Assembly (NCBI RefSeq): GCF_028282265.1 | Contig: NZ_JANQIH010000189.1 | Coordinates: forward strand, 1 to 35,373 | Direction of reading: 5' to 3' | DNA: 35,373 bases | Source: Allomuricauda sp. | Lineage (GTDB): Bacteria > Bacteroidota > Bacteroidia > Flavobacteriales > Flavobacteriaceae | Part shown: positions 11,233 through 12,960 of the stretch, one piece after another | Position numbering within the stretch: position 1 is the first letter of the stretch | How the letters are laid out: each line of letters begins with the position of its first letter | Translations under genes and position numbers: made by a program | Notes under the pieces: generated by a model | Databases searched by the model: none | What the model saw: the letters and a program-made list of their open reading frames with translations, nothing else | What the model was told of the DNA's origin: nothing

Positions 11233-11260
11233 AAAAAAAACGATTGAATTACTATTCAAT
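11233..11260 (-). terminator. Intrinsic terminator 1 directly after second RiPP precursor
   Basis: Minus strand: ATTGAAT-AGTA-ATTCAAT (11243-11260), 2 nt, then eight T (11240-11233). The stem begins inside the stop codon of the 53-aa precursor. The stem is AT-rich, so on its own it may be weak. Confidence 0.55.
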
Positions 11261-11421
11261 TAGTTGCAGGCTAAGGGACATTGATGGTTATCAAGGCTGG
11301 AGTTACAGGCACCAGAGGTAATTGTGCAACCTAAAGTACTACCGCCCAAAACTTGAGTGGTTTTGAAAGTTGAGATCACTTTCTTGTTCAATGATAGACT
11401 AATTCTACGGGCTTTTTTCAT
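11260..11421 (-). CDS. Class I lanthipeptide-type RiPP precursor (53 aa)
   Basis: Too short for the ORF track; translated by hand. It opens MKKARRISLSLNKKVIS, continues through a leader to VLGG (24-27), then has a core of 26 residues with four Cys (32, 39, 48, 52) and seven Ser/Thr. The leader is nearly the same as that of the upstream 63-aa peptide (MKK..+I.LSLNKKVIS, then GG), so they are paralogues. The pattern matches the Bacteroidota class I lanthipeptide precursors, in which Ser/Thr are dehydrated and joined to Cys, and the leader is removed at a double-Gly site on export. No LanB, LanC or peptidase-transporter is visible, so maturation must come from elsewhere, or the locus is relic. 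Two terminators follow. Confidence 0.82.
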   Translation of the reverse strand: MKKARRISLSLNKKVISTFKTTQVLGGSTLGCTITSGACNSSLDNHQCPLACN

Positions 11422-11458
11422 TATATAGGAATTTAAGGAGTTACTTATTTTTCAAAGA

Positions 11459-11650
11459 TTAGCAACAACCGCATGGCCTGGATTCATGGGTAGGATGCAT
11501 GGGAACGGTAGGGTCTGGTGGTAAACTTGCTCTAGTTTCCCATTGGCACCCAGAGACAAGGGTCAATCCGTTGCCACCAATTTTTTGTTGTTTCAGTTCA
11601 GAAATTACTTTTTTGTTAAGCGATAGCTTGATTTTTTTTGATTTTTTCAT
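11459..11650 (-). CDS. Class I lanthipeptide-type RiPP precursor (63 aa)
   Basis: 63 aa: leader MKKSKKIKLSLNKKVISELK up to the double glycine at 25-26, then a 37-residue core with Cys at 35, 60, 62 and 63 (ending RPCGCC), two Ser and four Thr, and many prolines (SLPPDPTVPMHP). The leader is shared with the 53-aa peptide encoded 37 nt downstream, while the cores differ completely. That is the usual behaviour of tandem RiPP precursor genes. The cysteine-rich C-terminus could form up to four thioether rings, or disulfides if the peptide is not modified. No biosynthetic enzymes are within the window. Product activity cannot be predicted; antimicrobial or signalling roles are the common options. 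Confidence 0.82.
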   Translation of the reverse strand: MKKSKKIKLSLNKKVISELKQQKIGGNGLTLVSGCQWETRASLPPDPTVPMHPTHESRPCGCC

Positions 11651-12216
11651 AGGTGCTAATTTTAAAGATTTGTAGGAAAATACTTTAAATATGATTGAGT
11701 ATAGTGCTGTTTAAAATATAATTAACTATTTATATAATTCATTATTTACATAAAATAAGTAAATAGATTGTTGAGTGCCCAAACTCTTTTTTGGTTAGCT
11801 TGAATGAAGTCCTCTTTTAGTGTATCCAAACTAAATTTTAGTTCGTATAATTTGGATTACATGGAATAAGGTTTCCTCCCTCTAATTGAATTCCTACAGA
11901 GAAACCGATGGCTAATCATCTTATTTAGTATGTTTTTAGATTTGAACAAACTAGTCACTAGTGCTTAGATATGACTTTCGGTTACATCATTAGGTGGAGC
12001 AAAGGATTGTTATCGCTGGTTTGCTGCGGGATTTTTATCGTAATAAGAATTTTTTGTTTCTTCTCTTAATGCTAAGAATGTGAGCAAAGTGAGGTTCATC
12101 CATTTCGTTAAACTTTATGAGATTGGTTATCGTTCTATGCTACTCGCTGACCTGTGTATCAATACAAATTGATGGTTAATTCCTATATTTAATGAAGCAA
12201 AACCTAAAGCAATAAA
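11651..12216. other. AT-rich 566-bp intergenic region
   Basis: Divergent gap between the RiPP precursors and the 247-aa secreted protein. No ORF of useful length on either strand, no tRNA-like fold that I can see. It holds a nested palindrome at 11824-11857 and a short odd palindrome CTAGTCACTAG. No clear TAnnTTTG box was found for either neighbour; TATATTTA at 12184-12191 is a weak -7 candidate for the plus-strand gene. Confidence 0.5.
11824..11857. repeat. Nested palindrome, possible operator or structured RNA
   Basis: Outer arms ATCCAAA (11824-11830) and TTTGGAT (11851-11857) enclose AACTAAA-T-TTTAGTT (11829-11843). The inner and outer stems compete for two bases. It lies in the promoter region of the RiPP precursors. 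Confidence 0.45.
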
Positions 12217-12960
12217 ATGAGAAAATATATAGCCTGTATAACTATAGGTCAGTTGATTGGACAATCGATTCTGGCTCAGGTTCCAGCCAATTATAATGCA
12301 GATAACGAATCTTTCGGAATGCTACCTATGTTGCAATACGCATTTCAGCAACTAAATAGCAAAAGTATGGAAGCTTTGGACAAAAAAGTGAATTACAAGG
12401 GATCGCCATATGTAATAAGAACTTTTGTTAAAGGTAGAATTTACAGTGGAGATGGTCTTGAAGGAGAGGCTTATTTAAGGTACGATGGGTATAACGATGA
12501 AGTTCAACTTAAATCAAGTGTGGAGGACTCGATTATACTTAAGCTTACCCAGAATGATGACATTTATTGCGTTTTGGGAAGGGAAAAGGTTTTTTTTAAA
12601 GAGTATTATGATAAAAATGATGAAGTAAATCAGGGCCATCTGTTTCAACTAGCCGAAATTGATGAAATGGTTCTTTTTGAAAGGAGAAGGAAAATCTACA
12701 AAGAAGGTAAGGAGGCCACTACCTCTTTTGAGCTTCCGGTGGCAAACAGATTTGTTTTGGAAAGACAATTATATTGCTCTAACAAAGAAGATGGAAAAAT
12801 CAAGTTTTTTAAACCTTCGAAAAAAAGCTTGCTCAACTTGTTGGCAAGTGAGGATAAGGAGAAAAACAATAAGATGAAAAGCTTTTTATCTAAAAGTAGA
12901 TTAAACCTTAAAGACCCCAAGGATGTGGTACAAGTCTTTTATTATTACAACACTCTATGA
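12217..12960 (+). CDS. Secreted hypothetical protein
   Basis: 247 aa, family not recognised. The signal peptide is MRKYIACITIGQLIGQSILAQ. The mature part begins VPANYNADNESFGMLPML and has a probable beta-rich domain (about 65-180; FVKGRIYSGDGLEGEAYLRYD). A basic C-terminal tail (KFFKPSKKSLLNLLASEDKEKNNK) precedes the end FYYYNTL. Two Cys residues lie at about 118 and 188. It is a single-gene unit: 566 bp of gene-free DNA lies upstream and a strong terminator downstream. Nothing connects it functionally with the RiPP precursors other than adjacency. No catalytic motif, membrane segment or barrel signature was found. Confidence 0.75.
   Translation: MRKYIACITIGQLIGQSILAQVPANYNADNESFGMLPMLQYAFQQLNSKSMEALDKKVNYKGSPYVIRTFVKGRIYSGDGLEGEAYLRYDGYNDEVQLKSSVEDSIILKLTQNDDIYCVLGREKVFFKEYYDKNDEVNQGHLFQLAEIDEMVLFERRRKIYKEGKEATTSFELPVANRFVLERQLYCSNKEDGKIKFFKPSKKSLLNLLASEDKEKNNKMKSFLSKSRLNLKDPKDVVQVFYYYNTL

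Follow-up and report, generated by a model that had tools for sequence, protein, structure and literature searches.

Introduction

In the prochlorosins and synechococsins, a single class II enzyme, ProcM or SyncM, is combined with scattered procA or syncA genes (PMC10783134). Bacteroidota are rich in class I LanC clusters, as found in a survey that read seven genes on either side, and the LanB of the pinensins is split (PMC7268733). A 2024 study, in which Kordia is named, counts as many as 176 predicted RiPP precursors in a Bacteroidota genome and suggests that precursors lacking neighbours are served by enzymes that are distant or tolerant; its accessible text sets out neither an architecture of one LanB serving about 100 dispersed precursors of a single leader family nor the genus under study here (PMC11118758).

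The window analysed herein is the whole stretch of 35,373 nucleotides, corresponding to the entire 35-kb contig C250 of a draft assembly from a marine Allomuricauda. It carries a pair of small genes whose products, as judged from sequence comparison, are most likely precursors of class I lanthipeptides that undergo modification in trans. The arrangement is similar to that of the prochlorosins with respect to one modification system, here presumably promiscuous, with precursors scattered among unrelated genes, and with respect to the conserved leader, the hypervariable Cys core and the GG-type export protease. It is different from the prochlorosins, which employ class II LanM and a Nif11-type leader in picocyanobacteria, in that class I LanB and LanC and a short KK-LNKK leader are used in Bacteroidota. 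One system together with several unlinked precursors of the same leader was found both in this genome and in Kordia algicida, modification of all of them being presumed, while the combination of LanM and Nif11-type leader that defines the prochlorosins proper is replaced by LanB plus LanC and a leader of the NF038153 type. The leader family and the C39 exporter are shared with the Bacteroidota class I lanthipeptides (NF038153), and the same LanB/LanC chemistry is expected, but the genes of the surveyed members lie near LanC whereas the window precursors stand on another contig. In addition, the LanB of this genome is of full length, unlike the split LanB of the pinensins.

Results

Tandem precursor genes in the window

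The following features are referred to throughout.

11459-11650, minus strand: precursor gene 1, 63 aa (open reading frame and translation)
11260-11421, minus strand: precursor gene 2, 53 aa (open reading frame and translation)
11224-11198, minus strand: predicted intrinsic terminator, a 12-pair stem and T-run, after gene 2 and before rlmB
11719-11735, minus strand: candidate regulatory site ATATAAATAGTTAATTA, form AATAGTTAAT, 85 nt upstream of the gene 1 ATG

An earlier note on this DNA had described tandem minus-strand peptides of 63 and 53 aa with a shared leader and unrelated cores, and both were recovered as open reading frames. The translation of gene 1 is MKKSKKIKLSLNKKVISELKQQKIGG followed by NGLTLVSGCQWETRASLPPDPTVPMHPTHESRPCGCC, and that of gene 2 is MKKARRISLSLNKKVISTFKTTQVLGG followed by STLGCTITSGACNSSLDNHQCPLACN. 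The leader is closed by GG at residues 25-26 in gene 1, leaving a 37-aa core with four Cys, seven Ser/Thr and a CGCC end, and at residues 26-27 in gene 2, leaving a 26-aa core, again with four Cys and seven Ser/Thr. The LSLNKKVIS...GG leader is common to the two, and the Cys/Ser/Thr cores are unrelated. The genes are separated by only 37 nt on the same strand and gene 2 is followed by a hairpin with a T-run, predicted to be a strong terminator, which suggests a single transcription unit that ends before rlmB; the terminator scan gave two sites in the region against a shuffle mean of 1.5. With 53 aa, gene 2 falls under a 60-aa cut-off for open reading frames, in agreement with the warning that such small genes are easily overlooked.

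A degenerate leader pattern of the LxLNKK[V/T]IS type gave three matches in the 3.87-Mb assembly, two in the pair and one in the lan cluster described below, and its backward control gave none in the same assembly. The leader of gene 2 and the in-cluster precursor at L006:6699-6887 are identical at 17 of 29 residues (E 4e-11 as a single comparison). The genomes searched gave no second copy of either core of the window pair.

Family assignment and selection on the leader

The gene 1 peptide matched NF038153, the class I lanthipeptide leader family, with 16.6 bits, below the curated cut-off of 22, and scored 97 bits against profile A1, of which alignment the peptide itself is a member. The gene 2 peptide gave no NF038153 match, and its sole NCBIfam match was to TIGR04149 with 15 bits, below the cut-off of 25. 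The NF038153 cut-off was passed by a sibling within the lan cluster (23.8 bits) and by one peptide of G063 (26.1 bits), and at E up to 0.1 a total of 15 among 17 aligned relatives matched this family. Both window peptides carry a core with Cys and Ser/Thr after the leader, the cleavage of which is predicted. The Pedobacter lusitanus peptides reportedly belong, with the pinensins, to the Bacteroidota class I lanthipeptides, the group whose leader family is that of the window pair. The proposed assignment to the Bacteroidota class I type was supported by sub-threshold matches and by the sibling; a complete lack of HMM matches and of conserved leader and GG in relatives, named in advance as grounds for abandoning it, was not what was observed.

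Comparison of codons 7-17 between the leaders of genes 1 and 2 gave 7.0 changes that are synonymous and 3.0 that are not (pS 0.89, pN 0.12), and pooling the leader codons of the seven precursors of this genome gave pS 0.75 and pN 0.17. The large excess of pS over pN indicates that the leader is kept as protein under purifying selection, the DNA having drifted near saturation. Mean identity among 17 related precursors is 58% for the leader and 19% for the core. Such a contrast between a conserved leader and a diversifying core is typical of RiPPs.

Lan enzymes and further precursors in the same assembly

The housekeeping genes of C250 include those for a rhomboid protease and for the SpoU methylase RlmB and, as read from their translations, rarA, a SusC/SusD pair and the ribosomal protein operons. 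Assembly-wide searches gave no match of LanB, LanC or C39 peptidase on C250, so that the claimed lack of dehydratase, cyclase and C39 transporter nearby extends to the whole 35-kb contig. A position beside LanB/LanC, usual but not strictly defining for a class I precursor, is therefore not seen in the window. The description of the pair as orphan holds for the contig but not for the assembly, in which a single LanB, a single LanC and just one strong match to C39 were identified, all on contig C243.

The C243 locus (L006) consists of a C39+ABC exporter, HlyD, four precursors, His_kinase, Response_reg+LytTR, LanB and LanC, and is presumably bounded by rimM/rpsP and dnaE, as read from translations. 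A search of the genome for LanB/LanC and a C39 transporter, recommended in the earlier note, thus led to one complete class I locus. LanB carries both halves, the glutamylation and elimination domains (PF04738, 456 bits; PF14028, 246 bits). LanC (PF05147) is stand-alone and the only LANC_like match in the assembly. The motifs WCYGD and CHG in its translation are taken to be the LanC zinc site, and QMDCGPTC in that of the exporter the C39 active site.

The length of LanB varies among relatives. The copy at L006:10276-13428 is of full length (1050 aa), and most matches in relatives are about 750 aa (split LanB); long copies were also seen in G436, G269 and G111, and the long copy of G062 carries an internal stop. 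Beyond lanC, L006:15002-15136 is a weak eighth precursor candidate with a different leader, KKFKLEKNVIS...KGG, and a one-Cys core; its leader resembles that of an orphan on G062 C40.

All four C243 precursors carry the same leader as the window pair, and so does a lone precursor on contig C308 among arginine-biosynthesis and housekeeping genes, giving at least seven precursors on three contigs with one LanB. The earlier note had left a choice between a two-component and a diversified locus. A dedicated two-component lanthipeptide, alpha plus beta, lying away from its enzymes would fit the single unit, the 37-nt spacing and the different cores with four Cys each. The cluster, however, also holds precursors that combine this leader with other cores, some in tandem and some single, the third unlinked precursor stands alone, and tandem pairs would also arise if members of a diversified library were duplicated locally. 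As at least five further precursors of the same leader are present in the genome, a dedicated pair is not specially supported and is considered unlikely, and it is the diversified nature of the cores that stands.

Decay is another possible origin of such an isolated pair. The lack of enzymes nearby and the 0.5 kb of AT-rich DNA upstream, with no obvious genes, would be expected if the two genes were relics of a lan cluster that had moved or been lost, but intact frames, purifying selection on the leaders, the terminator and the four Cys kept in each core render disuse very unlikely.

The genes might instead supply substrates to a radical-SAM peptide maturase, since TIGR04149, the only NCBIfam match of the 53-aa peptide (15 bits, cut-off 25), represents radical-SAM peptides with a similar leader and double-Gly. 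Leaders of the two kinds are alike, and ambiguous class calls have been described (PMC11118758). The profile search for radical-SAM proteins, also recommended beforehand, identified 14 matches in the genome: MiaB, MtaB, RimO, MoaA, HemN, HemW, BioB, LipA, RlmN, PflA-like, QueE-like, ArsS, PA0069-family and UDG-linked types. None of the 14 passed a RiPP maturase cut-off, and no maturase matching the TIGR04149 peptides was found here. Because none is a peptide maturase, LanB/LanC is the only RiPP route found in the genome, and modification by a radical-SAM enzyme, which in an assembly about 95% complete might have been missed, is even less probable than decay.

The assembly is a metagenome-like draft of 312 contigs (94.9% complete, 1.07% contamination) and C243 is only 17.7 kb, but its origin in another organism is the least probable reading of all, given rpsP/rimM and dnaE beside the cluster, GC and tetranucleotide profiles compatible among C243, C250 and C308, and the unlinked precursor of the same leader on C308.

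Distribution in the genus and the family

LanB was detected in 15 of 73 genomes of the genus. Precursor matches below E 1e-4 were found in six, all of them LanB-positive (hypergeometric p 3e-5). Weak matches in G008 and G013, which lack LanB, were dropped because they contain stops and have E above 0.02. In the drafts of G062 and G063, precursors were also located on contigs other than the LanB contig. The core NGSYQSC..HCY is common to C243 and G062 C201, and RGPGTTSCLSC to C243 and G063 C118; these shared cores stand at different places in their genomes.

A survey of 400 genomes of the family gave precursor matches (E up to 0.001) in 21, of which 20 carry LanB. Kordia algicida OT-1 (G426) yielded 97 leader matches (E up to 0.01), distributed around one chromosome that forms a single contig of 5.03 Mb and has one LanB, and G253 of the same genus 109 matches, likewise with one LanB; part of the Kordia matches may belong to radical-SAM systems. 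Under a strict pattern, 38 short stretches of K. algicida contained 47 intact precursor genes with two to eight core Cys, ranging from 0.17 to 4.86 Mb. One K. algicida precursor (L266) differs from the rest in its core, which repeats units of the CPIDT/CPIET type (VCPIDTLVCPIDTRLCPIDTRVCPIET).

History of the rlmB site

Of the 73 genomes of the genus, 71 yielded the rlmB locus, and no leader-like open reading frame was present near rlmB in the 29 other genomes whose DNA was examined. G020 keeps rlmB, the 247-aa open reading frame (60%) and the next lipoprotein (71%); the gap from rlmB to this open reading frame is about 200 nt there and about 960 nt here. The open reading frame also stands beside rlmB in G062 and G005, again with no precursors. 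As relatives keep the same neighbours without precursors, the simplest reading is that a precursor cassette was gained at the rlmB site, loss in the others being the alternative. The 247-aa protein itself (window 12217-12960) has a signal-peptide-like start and no Pfam match, adjoins rlmB in some relatives, and has two neighbouring matches in G005 (L083).

Comparison of the window stretch with phage records gave no match, and LanB on plasmids was below 60% identity everywhere, so that nothing points to a recent origin from a phage or a plasmid.

Candidate upstream regulatory site

A GTTAAT-type site at -76 to -92 was detected upstream of the window unit (p 0.004) and of the C308 precursor (p 0.002) by comparison with shuffled sequences, and a similar site with similar spacing lies upstream of one unit of the cluster and three units of G062. 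A composite form, GTTAA-N36..46-TTGTARG, was present in five of 16 promoters, compared with about 0.1% of shuffled sequences; its second half is missing from the window promoter, and the composite was absent from the Kordia promoters examined. The GTTAAT-type motif was first noticed by eye in the same promoters that were later tested. Unbiased motif discovery on the upstream regions exceeded shuffles weakly at best, so that the evidence for the regulatory motif comes from the targeted test, and a scan for sigma-70-type promoters stayed at chance level.

In K. algicida, inspection by eye of many precursors (L261-L298) indicated a TTTATAAAT-like element about 70-100 nt upstream, often followed by ACGA, which differs from the site of the Flagellimonas group and is a possible regulon marker in this species.

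Discussion

The genome holds a complete set of class I partners for the window pair, and precursors and LanB occur together among relatives. The reading preferred here, to which we assign a probability of about 0.8, is that the pair forms one unit of two class I precursors modified in trans by the lan enzymes of C243. The shared leader would be recognised by both LanB and LanC, of which LanB would dehydrate Ser/Thr of the core and LanC would add the core Cys, leading to thioether rings. Cleavage behind GG and export, with HlyD as the adaptor, would fall to the C39 peptidase-ABC exporter of C243. Through the shared upstream site, the kinase/LytTR pair of C243 may activate the cluster and the dispersed precursors together, co-regulation by the LytTR protein being a hypothesis. 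A single enzyme set would thereby serve a library of at least seven precursors at three places. The products probably act in antagonism or signalling.

At the level of the family, we tentatively suggest, at slightly less than even odds, that the Flavobacteriaceae possess a class I equivalent of the prochlorosins, in which one LanB/LanC, switched together with its dispersed precursors by one kinase/LytTR regulator, serves a genome-wide and fast-evolving library of seven to about 100 members, with cassettes gained at new sites. Taken individually, the peptides are fresh members of a known family, and the RiPP richness of Kordia has already been reported. Neither the architecture of one LanB with many dispersed precursors nor this genus was found in the accessible literature; priority is uncertain, the subscription literature lying mostly outside this scope.

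Mining of the LanC neighbourhood, with seven genes each way (PMC7268733), would miss the window precursors. Because such mining reads the LanC neighbourhood only, counts of class I libraries in marine Bacteroidota are probably too low. If it is true that one LanB/LanC accepts about 100 natural cores, the pair would be a tolerant class I system already at hand for the production of ringed peptides, and would provide a second, independent case in which to test how ring formation in many substrates is governed by a single enzyme. A further, testable question is why libraries of this kind evolve in bacteria, Kordia algicida among them, that attack algae or live on them.
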